The notes under the pieces: model-generated
Told to the model about the DNA's origin: nothing
Database searches by the model: none
What the model saw: the letters and a program-made list of their open reading frames with translations, nothing else
Source of the DNA: Candidatus Brocadia sinica JPN1
GTDB lineage: Bacteria > Planctomycetota > Brocadiia > Brocadiales > Brocadiaceae
Assembly: GCF_000949635.1 (NCBI RefSeq)
Contig: NZ_BAFN01000001.1
Span: forward strand, 3,159,052-3,223,051
Reading direction: 5' to 3'
DNA: 64,000 nucleotides
Position numbers and translations under genes: made by a program
Shown here: positions 23,330-33,304 of the stretch, piece after piece
Position numbering within the stretch: the first letter of the stretch is position 1
How the letters are laid out: every line of letters begins with the position of its first letter

Positions 23330-23647
23330 ATGTCTGTACTTATTGTCGGGGGAGACCATTTAGGAAGTATCCCAAAGGAGCTTGATAAAATCGGGGTTAC
23401 GGAGATTCGACACGTAACGGGCAGAAGCGGGCAGAAGATTCGGGATGGAATTCCGGAAACCATGGATTTTATTATTGTGCTGTACGATTTTGTGAATCAT
23501 AACCTTGCCCACAAAATAAAGAATCTTGCCGAGAACAGAAGAATTCCCGTTGTTTATGCAAAAAGGTCATGGTCATCTATTTATCAAAAAATGAAGGAGT
23601 GTCAGCAACAATTGAGAAAAGTTGGATTGCAAGCTCTCTTGAATTAG
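23330..23647 (+). CDS. DUF2325 protein
   Basis: 105 residues. MSVLIVGGDHLGSIPKELDK, IRHVTGRSGQKI and PETMDFIIVLYDFVNHNLAH are the DUF2325 pattern; the end (RIPVVYAKRSWSSIYQKMKE) also fits. The fold resembles a Rossmann-like nucleotide- or ligand-binding unit, with no known activity. An AGGAGG site sits just before the ATG. Its promoter overlaps a Fur-like palindrome, and DUF2325 genes often sit near iron-related genes, which hints at a role in metal or stress response. It is followed by a C-rich spacer and a strong terminator. Confidence 0.75.
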   Translation: MSVLIVGGDHLGSIPKELDKIGVTEIRHVTGRSGQKIRDGIPETMDFIIVLYDFVNHNLAHKIKNLAENRRIPVVYAKRSWSSIYQKMKECQQQLRKVGLQALLN

Positions 23648-23879: not shown

Positions 23880-26198
23880 ATGCAAGGAAAACTTATGAAA
23901 TACTATAAAAAAATACTTATCCTCATTCTTTTTATAATAACCATATCCTTATTCTGTAAAAACTCCTTTGCAGGCGTGTCACACGTCCTCAGCAGAAATG
24001 CAGATTACTCAACAGATGATCATGCCTTTCTTACGACTGATACCCTTTACGTCCAGGTAACGCAGAATATTCTTGATTACCGGGAAATAAAAAAATCGTT
24101 CTTTACCTTAAAATCTCATCAGACAAAAAATAAAACCAAATATCCATTGATTTGGAACTCTGACCTGACAGCCTTTACCGGCCTTGCACCCCTCGAAAAT
24201 TACCCCATCGGTGACAAGATAACCATTCACATAACCTTGCGCGGGAAAAACGCAAAGGATGAAATTAAAAGGAAAGACCGCTTTGTTATTGGCAACACTG
24301 GAAAGTGGACTTTAACAGGAACCATTTATGAAAAAATATCGGATAAAGGTACAGGAACCCTCACCAACGCACGTGTGCGGATTCAAGGCGTTGCGGATAT
24401 TAACACAGATGATATCAGTTATTACCCACAAGAAGACGACAAATTTATCCTTTCCGGTGAGAATGGAAATTTTGCCATAGATTATGAAGGTATTTCCGGT
24501 CAGGTTATTGTGATCACCGCAGGTAAGGAAGGTTATAAAAATGCAGGCAAAGAAATAACCCTGGGGCACAACAACAGTGTTACCATTACCCTTTCCCTCG
24601 TTTCGGCGGAAGATCATCCATCATACGAATACCGATCCTCCAAATCATGCGAAAAGTGTCACAGTACTATTTACAATGACTGGCAAGACAGTGATATGGC
24701 ATATGCGGCTGTTAATCCCATTAACCAGCTTGTCTTTCTCCTCTACACGGCATGGTATGTCACCGGTGACCGTGCCAATTTTACGGACCCTTCCATCTTT
24801 AATGACCCAAACCCTGCATTTGTGGGCGATAAGGGAAAGATATTTGAAGATGCTACAGGGCGATACATGATTCTGGGAGATGCGGGACATATCCACGATT
24901 GCGCTGACTGTCATTCGCCATCCTACGCATCGAAGGTACAGGGCGATGGTGTCACTCCGTTATGGGATATGCGGGCAGGGATACTGACTGACGTAGATAA
25001 ACTCTCCTTTGTAGACAAACAGGGTGTTCACTGCGATTTTTGTCATAAAATGCATTCGGTTCGTGATGAGGAAGAGTATTGGACAGAACCGGGGGTAAAT
25101 TATAAGGTAAATCTCTTGCGCCCTGACCCATTACTTGAATCATCTCGGGAGGGCAAGGTCATGTTTGGGCCATTTGACGATGTCATCTATAAGAGCATGC
25201 AGGCATCCTATGCCGCTCAGTTTAAAAAAAGTGAAATATGCTCACCCTGCCATCAGGATGCCAGGAAACTCTATCTGCAACCCTTAGACGGGAATAACCA
25301 GCCGAAGGGCGATGCAATTGAACGCATCCTCTGGAGTGAGGACACTTACCGGGAATGGCGTTTTAGCGGATACAGCGGACTGGAAGAAGATTATCCCGTA
25401 AACAATTACGTGGGAAAGGTACTGCAATGCCAGGATTGCCACATGAAGGATCCGCCGCCGGATCCAACCATTGGTAAGTCAATTGCAGATTATAGAGAAA
25501 TTACCGACCCCTTTTTCATGATTTCGGAAGAGAAAAGAAAGTACGCTACTAAACGTGATCCCAGAACAATCTATCCCCACCGTTTTGAAGGAACCAACCA
25601 GAATCTGACAGCGGGGAAGAGGAAAAGGTATCTGGATTGGGCAGTAGATCTTACGGTTACCGACACAAAGGTAGAGGATGGTATCCTGAGTTTTGATGTA
25701 AACCTCATAAACTCCCATACAGGGCACACCTATCCTTCGGGAGTGACCCAGAGAAATGTTGTTCTGCTTGTGGAGGCAACTCAATCGGGAACCGTTCTTT
25801 CTCAAAGCAACGATCAGGTCATAGACACACCGGGTGGAAATTTTCCTGACGGTTACTATGAAGGTAAAGGGGATTATGCGGGAAAACCAGGGAAGATCTT
25901 TATGAAACACAATAGAATGATAGTAGACAACGACGAACTCAGCCCCTTTTTCTATGACATCTTGTATGCCCATGCTGTGGAAGAGTTGTACGATACACGA
26001 ATTAAGGCAAACCAAACAGACACTACACATTATGAGTTTCAAACAATTGATACCAGCAAAATTACCATAACAGCCAGACTTATCTATCGTTTCCTCCCAA
26101 AGGGCACCCTGGAATTTGCAGCAAGAAACGGATATGTGATTCCCCTGGAAGAAAATGATTATGAATCACACAAGGTAGGGGTATCTTTAAACCCGTAA
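23880..26198 (+). CDS. Exported pentahaem c-type cytochrome with Ig-like/regulatory-like N-terminal region
   Basis: 772 residues. A signal sequence (KILILILFIITISLFCKNSF) begins after the start; ATG at 23895 is an equally good start. Residues about 40-235 have no haem site and look like beta-sandwich domains (VRIQGVADINTDD, GNFAIDYEGISGQVIVITA). Five CxxCH haem sites follow: CEKCH (about residue 257), CADCH (340), CDFCH (384), CSPCH (453), CQDCH (516). The remaining C-terminal part (about 560-770, with HTGHTYPSGVTQRNV) is again beta-rich. It could move electrons in the periplasm-like or anammoxosome space. It lies 295 bases upstream of the encapsulin, so a functional link is possible but not shown. 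Confidence 0.8.
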   Translation: MQGKLMKYYKKILILILFIITISLFCKNSFAGVSHVLSRNADYSTDDHAFLTTDTLYVQVTQNILDYREIKKSFFTLKSHQTKNKTKYPLIWNSDLTAFTGLAPLENYPIGDKITIHITLRGKNAKDEIKRKDRFVIGNTGKWTLTGTIYEKISDKGTGTLTNARVRIQGVADINTDDISYYPQEDDKFILSGENGNFAIDYEGISGQVIVITAGKEGYKNAGKEITLGHNNSVTITLSLVSAEDHPSYEYRSSKSCEKCHSTIYNDWQDSDMAYAAVNPINQLVFLLYTAWYVTGDRANFTDPSIFNDPNPAFVGDKGKIFEDATGRYMILGDAGHIHDCADCHSPSYASKVQGDGVTPLWDMRAGILTDVDKLSFVDKQGVHCDFCHKMHSVRDEEEYWTEPGVNYKVNLLRPDPLLESSREGKVMFGPFDDVIYKSMQASYAAQFKKSEICSPCHQDARKLYLQPLDGNNQPKGDAIERILWSEDTYREWRFSGYSGLEEDYPVNNYVGKVLQCQDCHMKDPPPDPTIGKSIADYREITDPFFMISEEKRKYATKRDPRTIYPHRFEGTNQNLTAGKRKRYLDWAVDLTVTDTKVEDGILSFDVNLINSHTGHTYPSGVTQRNVVLLVEATQSGTVLSQSNDQVIDTPGGNFPDGYYEGKGDYAGKPGKIFMKHNRMIVDNDELSPFFYDILYAHAVEELYDTRIKANQTDTTHYEFQTIDTSKITITARLIYRFLPKGTLEFAARNGYVIPLEENDYESHKVGVSLNP

Positions 26199-26493
26199 AG
26201 AAGTCTTAAAAAGGATGTTGACCTTCAAAGGCTATTCATTTTCGTGTTGGTTTGTAGTTTCTATCCATTGGCATTTCTATTGCAAGTTGGATCAACTTAT
26301 TAGTGATTATTCTTAACTCGAATGTAAACAAATTATGAATTGATTATCATAAATTGATGTAATTATAGGCAAATCATTCAGTTACACGTCTTAAATAGTG
26401 TAAAGTTTGCGATTCAATAAAATTAAAACTAACCTGGGAGCATAACAACTTGTCTAATATCCTGGATAAAAATTCTAAAAAGGAGGAAAGATT
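26199..26493. other. Leader of the encapsulin operon
   Basis: No gene is visible in 295 bases. The promoter of the encapsulin pair must lie here or farther upstream. GATTATCATAAATTGATG around 26342 is AT-rich with some symmetry, but no operator is clear. A very strong ribosome site, AAAGGAGGAAAG, precedes the encapsulin ATG. Confidence 0.45.
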
Positions 26494-27627
26494 ATGGGTG
26501 CGGCAAATAAATTTAAAACATTTCATGGTTTGACAGGGGTTGTTGCCCTGCTCGCGATGTTTTGCCTTCCACAATTGGATTCGTCTGTTTTTGCAGCGTG
26601 TGCGAAAGAAGACGATTGCCTTTCGTGTCACACTTCACAGGAATTGAGAAAGGAACATAAGAATTGTGAATATTTGAAGCAGGGCTGTCTTGTGTGCCAT
26701 ACAACGCCAGTGGCCCCGCCTGATTACAGAAAGATGGGAGAAGCACCTGGTGCGTGTCCGCAAGGAGATATACGCTCCGGGATGAAGGAGCCAGGGTTTG
26801 CGGGAATTACTTCAGAAGTGCATCTTGGACATGAAGATTGGGAGAAGATGCAACGTGCGGTCCATGAGACAATTGAGAGTCATCTTGTGGGAAGGAAGTT
26901 TCTTGGAGTTTACGGCCCCCTCGGGACAGGTGCCCAATGTGTTCCTCTGGATACCTACGGTATTCCTTCCTGGGCCAGTGTTGATATGCTCGGTGAGGGC
27001 AATGAAGCCATTCACTCTTTAAAGAGAGATATTGCCCATATACCTCTTATTTACAAAGACTTTTGGCTCTTCTGGCGGGATATAGAGGCCAGCAAAAAAT
27101 GCGAGATACCGTTGGATGTAAGTGCGGCGATTGGTGCGGCTGTTGCTGCCGCTGTCAGGGAGGACGATCTTATATTTAATGGTTGCCCAGAGATGAATAT
27201 GGCAGGACTTTTGAATGCTCCTGGGAGGAATATCCTGAAGCTCGGTGACTGGTCGGTGATAGGAAATGGTTTTCAGGATGTCGTATCGGCTGTGGAGAAA
27301 CTGAGAAGCGCCGGTTTTCTTCCCCCTTATGCCCTTGTAGTAAACCCAAGGCTTTATGCCCTCCTCCATAAGGTTTATGAGCGTACAGGAAAATTAGAAA
27401 TAGACGGTGTAAAAGAGCTGGTGAAAGGTGGTGTATATCAAAGTCCTGTACTGAAAAAGGACGTTGCGCTCGTAGTAGCAACGGGGAGGCAGAACCTGGA
27501 TCTGGCCGTAGGAACAAATTATACAGTAGAGTATTGGGGTCCCCAGGATTTGAATCACCGATTCAGAGTTGTAGGGAGTTCGGCGCTCAGAATTAAATGC
27601 CCTCAAGCCATCTGCACAGTGGAGTAA
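26494..27627 (+). CDS. Encapsulin shell protein with signal peptide and N-terminal dihaem domain
   Basis: 377 residues. Residues 10-35 are a signal peptide (VVALLAMFCLPQLDSSVFA). Two c-type haem sites follow, CLSCH (42-46) and CLVCH (65-69). From about residue 108 the protein is an HK97-fold encapsulin (family 1): RKFLGVYGPLGTGAQCVPLD, KDFWLFWRDIEASKKCEIPL, LDVSAAIGAAVAAAVREDDL, GDWSVIGNGFQDVVSAVEKL, and the closing beta-region VGTNYTVEYWGPQDLNHRFR with VVGSSALRIKCPQAI. Encapsulins self-assemble into closed shells around a cargo enzyme. Cytochrome-fused shells paired with a nitrite reductase-HAO cargo are known from anammox genomes. The signal peptide implies assembly outside the cytoplasm, perhaps in the anammoxosome. 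The ribosome site AAGGAGGAAAG is very strong. The cargo gene starts 3 bases after the stop. Confidence 0.9.
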   Translation: MGAANKFKTFHGLTGVVALLAMFCLPQLDSSVFAACAKEDDCLSCHTSQELRKEHKNCEYLKQGCLVCHTTPVAPPDYRKMGEAPGACPQGDIRSGMKEPGFAGITSEVHLGHEDWEKMQRAVHETIESHLVGRKFLGVYGPLGTGAQCVPLDTYGIPSWASVDMLGEGNEAIHSLKRDIAHIPLIYKDFWLFWRDIEASKKCEIPLDVSAAIGAAVAAAVREDDLIFNGCPEMNMAGLLNAPGRNILKLGDWSVIGNGFQDVVSAVEKLRSAGFLPPYALVVNPRLYALLHKVYERTGKLEIDGVKELVKGGVYQSPVLKKDVALVVATGRQNLDLAVGTNYTVEYWGPQDLNHRFRVVGSSALRIKCPQAICTVE

Positions 27628-27630
27628 GTC

Positions 27631-30258
27631 ATGTTTGTTAAGTTAGGGACTTACTTAATAGTAGTGTTTGCACTCCTTTCCCTCTGGTTTCGATATGGAT
27701 ACGCTGAGATTCCCTGCCTTGCTGGAAAGGATGGAATCGTTGACCTGGAGATGGAGGCCAGGCCTGTAGCGATAGAACTCAGACCCGGGATATTCTTTGA
27801 TGGCTGGGGGTATTGTCTGAAGGGAGAAAAACCCACCGTACCGGGTCCCACCATCAAGGTGAGAGAAGGGACAAAGATCAGAATCCATCTCACCAATAAG
27901 CTAACCGTTCCTGCCTCCGTGCATCCACATGGAGTAAAATATACCGTAGCCAATGATGGCGCCCATATTGCAGGAAATCCCACGAGTATCGTGGAGCCAG
28001 GGAATTCAAGAACCTTTGAATGGGACACCACAGGTACACCGGGTACGTGGTTTTATCATACCCACGCATTTGAAAAAGGAGGAGAAGAGGGATTATATAG
28101 GGGATTATGGGGCGCACTCATTGTAGAACCGAAAGGGGGTGACGCTAACCCTCCAGACAAAGAGTTTGTCGTCTTCATGCATACATTTCATGTCAATGGG
28201 CAGGAATATGAAACCTTTAATGACAAATCAGGGGATATGGAGTTTATGAAAGGGGACAGTTCCGCCTTCCCTGGTCTGCTCTGGAAGGCAAAGATGGGAG
28301 AGAAGGTACGGTTTCATCTCATAAATTCTGCAGAGGAGGAGCATACCTTTCACACCCACGGCCACCGCTGGGTAGATCGGGCCAGTGGGCAGCTTATCGA
28401 TAACATCGGTCTGGTACCGTTTACTTCCTATGTCCTAGATTTTATTGCCGGTGAAGATGTCGGACCAGGCAACTGGGCGTTTCACTGTCACTTCCATGAG
28501 CACATGATGAATGGCATGTTTGGGATTTTCGTGGTGGAAAAGGGAGAGCCAAAAATAACGATGAAGGGAACGTCTTCCCCTTCTGGGGGGGGCAGGAATA
28601 TCCCCCGGGCTCAAGCGCTCCCTGAGTTCCCCATTCCGCCAGTCGAGGCGGGGAGTGGAATCGCATTTCAAGCGCCTCCTTCTGAAAGTCCCCCTCCTAC
28701 CCTTGAAACGTTACCGGGGTCTTTGACATACCAGGATCCATTATTGAAAAGCCTGTATGAAGAGTTTGTCGGACTAAGCCAGGGTGACGGCCCCTGGGGC
28801 GAATTTTATAAACCGATCCCTTTGTACACCTATTTTAATCCAGCCAGACATTATCTTCCGCCTGATAGCCAGGATTATAAAAGGCTCCTGGAAAAGTACA
28901 GACCTGACCAGTGTGTTGAATGCCACGAGGAATCCTCGCCTGGCATTGTGAATGAGTGGAAGGTGTCCAATCATGCCAATCCCAGGAAGAACCCGGAAGT
29001 CGCCGCAGAGACCCGGGAAATCGAGGAACTGATCGGTAAGGAACTGAACAACTGGAAGCCGGGGACAAAGGATGGTGTTTACTGCTCCTATTGTCATGGT
29101 GATGATCATGAGAATCTTTTTATGCCAACAGTCGATAATTCATGTGGCGCATGCCATCCGAAACAGGCACAGGAGTTTGCAAAAGGGAGGGAGTATGGAA
29201 AACCGAGCCATCCTCACAGCTGGGAGGGAAGTGTATCCGTTCCGTGGTATGTTGAACTTTATAGACGTGGTGAAGGGTACTCTATGGTGGGATGTGACCA
29301 GTGTCATCAGAATATGTCATCATGCGACGACTGCCACAGCCGGCATCGCTTTTCGGCTGCTGAGGCACGCCGTCCCGAGGCATGTTCAGGCTGTCATATG
29401 GGGCCAGACCACCCTGACTGGGAGAGTTACGAACATTCCAAATGGGGTGTGATATATCATACGACCGGAGAACTGTGGGATTGGGAAAAGAATCTCTCTG
29501 ATGTGATCCCCGGTAAAGATTACCTTGCCCCGACCTGCCAGTACTGCCATATGTATGTGGGTGATGGGCGGTGGGAGATGAATGTAGAAACCAAGGGCAT
29601 ATGGCGCATGGGTGTCATTCCTCCCAAAGAAGTAGAGTTTAAATCCGGACTGAAGGATTTTCCGTATGGCATAAAAATACCACCCATGGATAAGAAACTT
29701 GAAATATACTCAGCAGAAAGCAAGGAGAAACGCCGCCAGTGGATAGAAATGTGTGCAAGGTGTCATAGCATCAGGTTTTCTGATATGTGGCTTGATTCTC
29801 TGGATCAATACATGTTTGAATCATGGCGGAGGATTGATGAGGCACAGCTCATTGTGGAAGAGCTCTTTGCCAAAGATATGGTTAAACCGTCTCCGGAGGA
29901 AAGACCACCGTTTCCCTTAAGTGATTTAATCGTCAAGGTGCTTGGTCCAGAGAAATTAGGTACCGAAGTTTATAGCCTTTTTAAAAAGACCAGTGGCCAC
30001 TTGCCGGTTCTTGGTCCGGTTCTTGGCGCCTATGCCATATTTACCCGGAACGACGGGAATCCAAGTGGTGTAGAACGGGAGTATGTGGAAATGTGGTTCT
30101 GGAACCACCTGCAGGGATACAAGGGCACCGCCCATGCCCAGCAGGACATCAGCTGGTGGTGGGGCACTGCCAAAACGATGGGCAATGTGACCCGTATCCG
30201 GGACGAAGCGTTGAAATTACAGCGTTTAAAGAACATTGAAGATGCAGTAAAAAAATAA
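27631..30258 (+). CDS. Encapsulin cargo: multicopper (nitrite reductase-like) oxidase fused to octahaem HAO-like domain
   Basis: 875 residues. Signal peptide 1-25. A two-cupredoxin multicopper domain spans about 30-305: HPHG (98-101), HTH (143-145), HTHGH (241-245) and the HCHFHEH (285-291) with downstream M, the copper-binding set of multicopper oxidases. A Pro-rich linker (315-365) leads to an HAO-like domain with eight CxxCH: 428, 485, 505, 555, 565, 585, 636, 708. Haem spacing and EHSKWGVIYH fit HAO. The C-terminal QDISWWWGTAK lies where active HAOs have PDYTQWHG, so the Tyr that crosslinks the P460 haem seems to be Ile. That favours a reductive or non-P460 role (nitrite, NO or hydroxylamine chemistry). 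It is translationally coupled to the encapsulin. The C-terminus (KNIEDAVKK) may serve as targeting peptide, but this is unproven. Confidence 0.87.
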   Translation: MFVKLGTYLIVVFALLSLWFRYGYAEIPCLAGKDGIVDLEMEARPVAIELRPGIFFDGWGYCLKGEKPTVPGPTIKVREGTKIRIHLTNKLTVPASVHPHGVKYTVANDGAHIAGNPTSIVEPGNSRTFEWDTTGTPGTWFYHTHAFEKGGEEGLYRGLWGALIVEPKGGDANPPDKEFVVFMHTFHVNGQEYETFNDKSGDMEFMKGDSSAFPGLLWKAKMGEKVRFHLINSAEEEHTFHTHGHRWVDRASGQLIDNIGLVPFTSYVLDFIAGEDVGPGNWAFHCHFHEHMMNGMFGIFVVEKGEPKITMKGTSSPSGGGRNIPRAQALPEFPIPPVEAGSGIAFQAPPSESPPPTLETLPGSLTYQDPLLKSLYEEFVGLSQGDGPWGEFYKPIPLYTYFNPARHYLPPDSQDYKRLLEKYRPDQCVECHEESSPGIVNEWKVSNHANPRKNPEVAAETREIEELIGKELNNWKPGTKDGVYCSYCHGDDHENLFMPTVDNSCGACHPKQAQEFAKGREYGKPSHPHSWEGSVSVPWYVELYRRGEGYSMVGCDQCHQNMSSCDDCHSRHRFSAAEARRPEACSGCHMGPDHPDWESYEHSKWGVIYHTTGELWDWEKNLSDVIPGKDYLAPTCQYCHMYVGDGRWEMNVETKGIWRMGVIPPKEVEFKSGLKDFPYGIKIPPMDKKLEIYSAESKEKRRQWIEMCARCHSIRFSDMWLDSLDQYMFESWRRIDEAQLIVEELFAKDMVKPSPEERPPFPLSDLIVKVLGPEKLGTEVYSLFKKTSGHLPVLGPVLGAYAIFTRNDGNPSGVEREYVEMWFWNHLQGYKGTAHAQQDISWWWGTAKTMGNVTRIRDEALKLQRLKNIEDAVKK

Positions 30259-31064: not shown

Positions 31065-33304
31065 ATGACCAAATGGACAACAAATGGTCTGTTTCCGTTC
31101 TTCTTGTCATCAGGCATTTTACTCCTAAGCGTCGTTCCTTTTATTTCACCCAAAATTCTCGCCGAAGGCACAGACACGTCCTCAACTTTGATATTGGGAA
31201 CAACCCGGTCAGTTGAAACCACCTCCAGCAAAAAGGAGAAACATACACGTGATGTGGAGGCTGCCGTTGCGGAAGAACTCGTAACCGAAGCCATCTGGTT
31301 TGGATTTGGGGAGGAAGTAGCAATTGCTACAAGACACGAAAGCCCCATCGGCAAGGCTCCCAGCATTGTTACCGTAATTACCGTCCGGGACATTAAGAAT
31401 TTGGGGTATCGCACCTTTGTAGAAATTTTAAGGACGGTACCGGGATTTGAAATTTTAAAGGATGATTCCTTTGGGGCTGTAGTCCCCAACGTGCGGGGAC
31501 TAATAGGTTCAGAGAAAATACGGGTGATGCTTAATGGACATCTCGTAAATAATCCTTTCAGCGGCGGGGGCATTTACTTTATTTGACGATTTCCCCCTGG
31601 AAAATATAAAAAAGATAGAAATCATCCGTGGCCCGGGTTCCGCTGTTTATGGTGAAAATGCGTTTTTAGCGGTCGTAAATATTATTACGATAGATGCGAA
31701 GGATATTGACGGCGTAAAGCTGAGTAGTGGTTACGGGAGTTTCGATACGTACGAGGAAAATGTTGTGTTTGGTAAGACATGCGGCAAGGTCGAGTTCTCC
31801 GGGATGGCCCGTTACAGGCAGACCACCGGTTTTGATGGTATTGTCGAGAGGGATAGACAAACAATAAATGATAACATCAGTTCTTCTTTACCTCCTCCTT
31901 TCAATTTCCCGGCAGCCTCCCAGGCTCCGGGAAGGGTGCATGACGGGAGGCAGGAATACGACCTGAACCTAAGAGTTACATACAAAGATTTCTACGTTGA
32001 GGGGTTATACATTAATAAAAATAAGGGACCTTTTATCGGTCCTCAATTTGCTCTGAATGACGAGTCTGATGTGGAAACTAACTATGTCTTTGTTGATGCC
32101 GGGTACAGGAAAACCTTTGAGGAAAGATTTACCGTAAAACCCAGGGTCTATTATGATCAATTTGATGACAATATTTACATTGAATCATTACCGGAGGGTG
32201 GAACTCTGGATAGGAACGGTGACGGATTCCCCGATACTCGTTATCCCGATGGACTTATTGGAAACGGCAAGGTGATTGAGAAGATTGTCGGTACAGAGAT
32301 TCCCTTTGATTATAAATTGTTCGATGGAAATATCATTACCCTGGGACTGGAATATCGTTTGATCAATCAAACCAATGTCCATTTTTTGAGCAATTTTCAT
32401 CCAGTAACACTGGAGCCTCTGGATTCTATCCAGAATTTTTCGGATTCTTATCCCTTTTTGGAAGAAGCTACACGAAGGATATGGTTGGTTTATCTGCAGG
32501 ATACCTGGGACATTACTGATACCTTACACCTCACCCTGGGGGGCAAGGCATGATCAATACAGTGATTTTGGCGGTGCGACCAGTCCACGTTCGGGTTTAA
32601 CATGGGCATTTATGAAGAACGCATCACTAAAACTGCTTTACGGAGAGGCCTTTCGCCCACCTAATTTTCAAGAGATGTTTACCACCAACCAGCCTGCTAT
32701 TGAGGGAAATAAGGATTTAGATCCTGAAACGATTCGAACATACGAGGTTGGATTAAGTTACCAGTTTAACAAACATGTTACCAGCAGTGTTAATTATTTC
32801 TATAATGACATCGAGGACCTCATTGTCTTACGTACTGCTGAATCTGCTAATGAACCCGCACGTTTTGAAAATTTTGGGGATGCCCATGTCCAGGGTGTTG
32901 AGATGGAGACCAGGGTGGATATAACAAAAGATAATTATGTCTTTATGAATTATACCTTCCAAAATCCGGAAGATAATCACGGAAACGATCTGCCATCCGT
33001 TGCTCAGCACAAGGGCAATTTTGGTATGAACGTGCATTATTGGAAGTATATCAATACCAACCTGAGCACCTTCGTCAGCGGGACCCGTTCCCGGAAAGAT
33101 GATAACCCCAGGGACGACTTGCCGGCTTATGCACTGCTTAATCTTTCGATCATTGCAAAAGAGTTCTTTAAGACCATGGAGGTGCAGGGGACGGTGTTTA
33201 ACCTGCTCGACAAGGACTATAGCGACCCGGGGCCCATGGCTATACCGGACGATCTCCCCAGACCCGGACGAACATTTTTTGTTGGATTGAGCTATCAGTT
33301 TTAA
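31065..33304 (+). pseudogene. TonB-dependent outer-membrane receptor, two frameshifts
   Basis: Three frames together give a complete receptor of about 746 residues: signal peptide (31065 onward, LFPFFLSSGILLLSVVPFIS), plug domain (GKAPSIVTVITVRDIKNLGY, FVEILRTVPGFEI, VMLNGHLVNNPF, IEIIRGPGSAVYGENAF) and barrel ending in RTFFVGLSYQF with the terminal Phe of outer-membrane proteins. The first break is at about 31570, in a run of five G; removing one G restores SGGAFTLFDDFPLENIKKIE. The second is near 32543, in a run of six G; removing one G restores LTLGARHDQYSDFGGATSPR. Both would be fixed by dropping one G, so sequence error or slip-strand variation are as likely as decay. Such receptors import siderophores, haem, B12 or other large ligands; the ligand is not evident. 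Confidence 0.85.

Follow-up and report, generated by a model that had tools for sequence, protein, structure and literature searches.

What does an exported encapsulin with haems of its own do in an anammox bacterium, together with the enzyme encoded beside it? The question is raised by a gene pair of Candidatus Brocadia sinica JPN1 that codes for a family-1 encapsulin and, directly downstream, for a fusion of a multicopper oxidase (MCO) with a hydroxylamine oxidoreductase (HAO)-like protein, its presumed cargo. The pair occupies positions 26494 to 30258 of the window, by which we mean the whole 64,000-nucleotide stretch analysed here (contig NZ_BAFN01000001.1); the host genome is a 4.08-Mb assembly of 3 contigs with a 100% completeness rating. 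The pair is an intact member of the published anammox cEnc/NIR-HAO system and as such is already known. Our tentative reading, to which we give a probability of roughly 0.4, is that the system is a reductive sink with a protective role in the anammoxosome.

Architecture of the shell and cargo genes

Both genes were found by an open reading frame (ORF) check, each running from an ATG start to a TAA stop, with a spacer of 3 bases (GTC) between them. The features of the pair are as follows.

26481..26486, + strand: AGGAGG, a strong ribosome-binding site of the shell gene, read from the sequence
26494..27627, + strand: family-1 encapsulin shell gene, 377 aa (NF041155, PF04454 and EncA matches)
26494..26595, + strand: inferred signal-peptide region of the shell, residues 1-34 (hydrophobic from residue 12, mean hydropathy 2.1)
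26596..26718, + strand: dihaem module, residues 35-75, with CxxCH at 42 and 65 and one further conserved His between them
26794..27624, + strand: HK97-type shell domain, residues 101-377 (aligned with EncA residues 3-279, no large gaps)
27631..30258, + strand: exported MCO-HAO fusion, presumed cargo, 875 aa (ORF, with profile and structure-sequence matches)
27631..27705, + strand: inferred signal-peptide region of the cargo, residues 1-25, ending ...GYA|EIP (hydropathy 2.2 over residues 2-16)
27733..28545, + strand: two-domain laccase-type MCO with its full ligand set (laccase matches, ligand alignment)
28546..28710, + strand: MCO-HAO linker, variable in length and sequence among relatives (alignment of relatives)
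28711..30255, + strand: octahaem HAO-like domain with 8 CxxCH and SWWWG at residues 841-845 (6h5l, 562 bits)

The original prediction of a complete pair, in which an encapsulin with a signal peptide and two CxxCH sites is followed after 3 bases by an 875-residue signal-peptide protein joining an MCO to an octahaem HAO-like domain, was borne out by these features, including a hydrophobic 15-mer from residue 12 of the shell. We are highly confident of this architecture, as far as it can be read from sequence.

The shell protein scored 238.7 bits with the NCBIfam model encap_f1 (NF041155, cut-off 100) and matched Pfam Linocin_M18 (PF04454) over residues 111-360 (1.3e-60). The solved Myxococcus xanthus-type EncA matched residues 100-377 with 256 bits, an alignment of 278 residues. 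Because our AlphaFold2 models, built from 9 sequences for the shell and 8 for the cargo, had pLDDT values of 33 and 36, respectively, the assignment of the HK97 fold rests on homology to solved shells, and assembly into an icosahedron is predicted. EncA has no signal peptide and no haems, and its cargo is ferritin-like, whereas the shell studied here carries a signal peptide and a dihaem.

In freshwater anammox bacteria, encapsulins that bear a dihaem at the N-terminus and adjoin an NIR-HAO gene have been the subject of descriptions and reviews (PMC6934571, PMC8346489, PMC8229669; Giessen and Silver 2017, as cited). Our pair shares with them the signal peptide, the dihaem N-terminus, the family-1 shell, the MCO-HAO fusion that follows and the anammox host, and shows no structural difference; its copper domain is an intact laccase-type one, which leaves the "NIR" in the name unsupported. 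The published compartments, cEnc, are of the T=3 type, and their role is given as unknown, with detoxification or iron storage proposed (PMC8346489). The original prediction was thus right that the pairing was known from anammox bacteria and its chemistry unsettled. Encapsulin protein has been detected in the anammoxosome by proteomics (PMC6934571), and protection against hydroxylamine is attributed to Xing et al. 2020 as cited in PMC12445922.

A conserved HAO half and a copper half that decays in some relatives

Residues 361-875 of the cargo contain eight CxxCH and match the HAO-like protein 6h5l, the closest solved relative, with 562 bits. At the site of the cross-link Tyr, the window protein has SWWWG (residues 841-845), and every relative covering the site has W or L. 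The HAO domain therefore appears not to be of the oxidative type, the cross-link Tyr being absent as in the reductive HAOr. The absence of the Tyr in the Kuenenia cargo has been published and interpreted as a mark of reductive catalysis. With HAOr (kustc0458 type, solved relative 6h5l) the domain also shares the octahaem and the SWWWG motif; HAOr differs in having no MCO and in its neighbour, a class-I-like dihaem cytochrome (kustc0457 type) unrelated to the shell dihaem. An identity as hydrazine dehydrogenase was rejected (145 bits, cut-off 900).

Residues ~59-307 of the cargo form two cupredoxin domains, whose best solved relatives are two-domain laccases (1e-37 over ~250 residues; e.g., 8aip and 3cg8). 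The laccase motifs HxH, HxH, HxxHxH and HCHxxxHxxxxM are all present, as H98-P-H100, H143-T-H145, H238-TF-H241-T-H243 and H285-C286-H287-FHE-H291-MMNG-M296, and alignment of relatives found all 12 ligand positions in the window protein. By established MCO motif rules, these residues would build a type 1 (T1) copper site in the second domain and supply the eight His of a trinuclear type 2/type 3 (T2/T3) cluster. Unlike two-domain laccases, the MCO studied here is joined to a multihaem enzyme, and its gene accompanies that of an exported encapsulin. Copper nitrite reductase (NirK) was ruled out as an identity of the cargo, given 53.5 bits against a cut-off of 296.3 and the laccase ligand set. 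Judged by motifs and matches, the copper domain is a two-domain-laccase-type MCO and the name "NIR" is a misnomer; the laccase option had already been raised by Tracey et al. 2019 (PMC6934571). Free-standing laccase-like genes occur in many Brocadiales genomes, including several without an encapsulin; one, a 434-aa frame at G000:C1:325864-326640 (L053), is a second gene of this kind and is 33% identical to the cargo MCO.

The MCO ligands are intact in Brocadia, Jettenia, G040, G010 and G003 and in the separate MCO of G060, and broken in five genomes. Three of these, G031 (Kuenenia), G029 (K. hertensis) and G035, have lost T3 ligands and kept every T1 ligand; G032 has lost one T3 and one T1 His, and G044 the Cys and other ligands. 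The kuste2479-type cargo of Kuenenia (852 aa, like that of G031) is the same fusion, with 74% identity over the aligned part; the G031 cargo has lost two T3 ligands (H145->Y, H287->Q) that the window protein keeps. When the ligand columns were left out, the ratio of MCO to HAO divergence was 0.70-1.11 in the 11 intact cargos and 1.19-1.78 in the 5 decayed ones, without overlap. We read this as probable relaxed constraint on the MCO after loss of the cluster. The cargo tree is weakly resolved, and the pattern of ligand loss requires at least two changes; we did not find this pattern described in a literature search limited to open papers. The MCO diverges faster than the HAO in decayed cargos; the HAO half is the conserved core of the cargo and is read as the part carrying the shared function.

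The dihaem of the shell

The N-terminus of family-1 shells is stated to face the lumen in these systems (PMC8229669), so the dihaems should line the inside rather than span the wall. Conduction of electrons through the shell by its own haems, as the original prediction had it, is unsupported on this ground, and five genomes have haem-less shells beside the same cargo.

Searched by itself, the dihaem module had no significant match among solved structures. When four genomes were scanned with a profile of seven modules, one and the same hexahaem cytochrome was the best place outside the shells in all of them (E 4e-4 to 0.01); its gene directly adjoins that of an HAO-like octahaem protein. Gene order and haem count would make this cytochrome the counterpart of the hexahaem subunit in the Rieske/cytochrome b complex Kuste4569-4574; the haems of that subunit are proposed electron donors to Kuste4574. 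With the CxxCH and His positions fixed, 0-4 of 500 shuffles reached the real score; the four hexahaem sequences are orthologues and hence not independent tests. The shell dihaem appears to resemble, weakly, a haem pair of the hexahaem cytochrome, and common descent is a lead, not proven. Homology to the partner of HAOr (kustc0457 type) was rejected, as that protein is a class-I-like cytochrome without similarity to the module.

A bolder scenario would make of the inner wall an electron-injection module that shares its origin with the hexahaem partner of the Kuste4574-type HAO-like reductase and wires the cargo. In Brocadia and Jettenia, the cargo would then reduce both nitrogen species and O2, and loss of the copper cluster would have left Kuenenia and others with the HAO activity alone. 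We consider this scenario unlikely.

Distribution of the system and possible loading of the cargo

The shell is present in 20 of 62 Brocadiales genomes, and strong MCO matches were found in exactly the same 20, near the shell gene. Since the two co-occur in the same genomes and lie close together, their pairing is not due to chance. For genomes sampled from the phylum outside the Brocadiales, the alignments with matching shells are mostly confined to the shell domain.

Five genomes (G010, G003, G032, G029 and G044) keep the N-terminal region of the shell without any CxxCH, next to the same MCO-HAO fusion. In a sixth, G060, the shell is also without haems, in a frame possibly incomplete at its start, and the MCO is separate. 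In G040 (L064:1-1767 and L065), two shell genes stand in tandem on a single contig; the first lacks the dihaem and the second carries it, so that a mixed, two-component shell is possible. The MCO-HAO fusion of this genome apparently follows on the next contig. In the closest relative, G021, the remnant of a second encapsulin (L054:9649-10149, residues 211-377, 83% identical to the window shell) sits upstream of the intact dihaem shell, between it and a thioredoxin-like gene. The Brocadia carolinensis encapsulin has been stated not to be cytochrome-fused (PMC6934571), contrary to record AYTS01000183, in which the shell carries the dihaem in frame (L007:3526-4605).

The MCO-HAO protein might be an operon neighbour only and work free in the anammoxosome. 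In the alignment of relatives, no targeting peptide was found in the linker, which is variable, or at the C-terminus; this conserved end belongs to the HAO domain, occurs in free HAOr as well and bears no added peptide, in agreement with PMC8229669. Cargo of family-1 encapsulins commonly, though not always, carries a C-terminal targeting peptide, but its lack is usual in this encapsulin subgroup (PMC8229669, PMC6934571) and so does not exclude membership. The cytochrome domain has been proposed to recruit the cargo (PMC8229669), a route that is impossible with haem-less shells; as five genomes have such shells beside the same fusion, loading by the cytochrome cannot hold for all and, on this comparison, cannot be a general rule. 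Against a free MCO-HAO protein, which we regard as distinctly unlikely, stand the perfect co-occurrence and the adjacency in 20 genomes, typical of encapsulin cargo.

A proposed protective reductive sink and its alternatives

We favour a protective reductive sink, which could work as follows. Shell and cargo would both be exported by Sec and acquire their c-type haems beyond the membrane, the anammoxosome lumen being the most likely place. Shell domains would assemble into an icosahedral cage with the dihaem modules along its inner face and the cargo inside. The cargo would probably be a trimer, because HAO and two-domain laccases are both trimeric. Small cytochromes or the shell dihaem modules could feed electrons to the octahaem chain, and the active haem, without the Tyr cross-link, would reduce reactive nitrogen species, presumably NO, nitrite or hydroxylamine. 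The laccase-type copper site, intact in this species, is predicted to reduce stray O2 to water in addition. In favour of the sink we count the families of shell and cargo, the full MCO ligand set, the Tyr-less HAO domain, the occurrence of both genes in the same 20 genomes, the decay of the MCO but not of the HAO half in some lineages and the similarity of the dihaem to a haem pair of a cytochrome encoded next to an HAO-like protein, together with the published hydroxylamine protection and the proteomic detection in the anammoxosome.

Several observations weigh against this proposal. We found no measured activity of this cargo in the literature consulted, and no targeting peptide was found, so that encapsulation is presumed. 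The dihaem is not needed for the common function, whatever that is, since 6 of the 20 systems are without it. The system is missing from 42 of the 62 Brocadiales genomes and is therefore dispensable for anammox, which fits a stress role without saying which stress. Finally, O2 reduction cannot be the shared function, because Kuenenia is without the T3 copper site.

The direct fusion of an intact MCO to the HAO domain also brings to mind a self-contained oxidase, in which the HAO oxidises hydroxylamine or hydrazine and passes electrons within the molecule to the copper site, where O2 is reduced; the hydroxylamine-stress role of Xing et al. 2020, as cited in PMC12445922, would suit it. However, no relative covered has the Tyr tied to oxidative catalysis, the fusion is kept in relatives without T3 copper, and anammox cells live without O2, which together make such an oxidase quite improbable.

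We also hold it very unlikely that the system is a catabolic nitrite reductase supplying NO to hydrazine synthase, as the name NIR-HAO implies. Brocadia seemingly is without canonical nitrite reductases and related HAOr is reported to turn nitrite slowly into NO (PMC12485887); in addition, our profile search found no Cu nitrite reductase above the cut-off in this genome. Yet the NirK score and the ligand set of the copper domain speak against this role, as does the absence of the system from most of the order, and nitrite reduction of the HAOr type is disputed (PMC11897245).

Ferroxidase activity is common among MCOs. Iron handling, in which the MCO would be a ferroxidase, the cage an iron store and the haem domains an electron outlet, could thus draw on that activity, on ceruloplasmin among the cargo matches and on the ~25 nm iron-rich particles in anammoxosomes that have been proposed to be encapsulins (discussed in PMC6934571), but it is very improbable given a copper site broken in five relatives, including both Kuenenia, no ferritin-like cargo beside the shell in the neighbourhood comparison and an HAO half that is the more conserved.

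Neighbouring genes

Two genes upstream of the pair deserve mention.

23330..23647, + strand: small gene, possible accessory (homologues near the pair in L055, L056, L059, L065, L066, L068 and L072)
23880..26198, + strand: exported multihaem cytochrome gene, 772 aa (ORF, neighbourhood comparison)

The small gene, a possible functional partner of the pair, probably corresponds to the DUF2325 gene drawn in Fig. 1 of Tracey et al. In G035 and G031, homologues of the 772-aa cytochrome gene are encoded downstream of the pair, no more than ~5 kb away; its link to the encapsulin system is uncertain. Downstream, at window positions 31065-33304, a TonB-dependent receptor is split over three frames. Its counterpart in G021 is one long frame (L054:2852-5086), and the break reflects either a pseudogene or small assembly errors. 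A secreted thioredoxin-like gene lies directly upstream of the shell in L054, L055, L056, L057, L058, L059, L061, L064 and L070, and was not found at the corresponding place in the window.

Implications for anammox encapsulins

The label "nitrite reductase" is misleading for this cargo, and cytochrome-mediated loading is not a general rule. The ligand survey guides the choice of species in which to study the function of anammox encapsulins: Kuenenia, the usual model, is suited to the HAO half only, and Brocadia or Jettenia to the copper chemistry.

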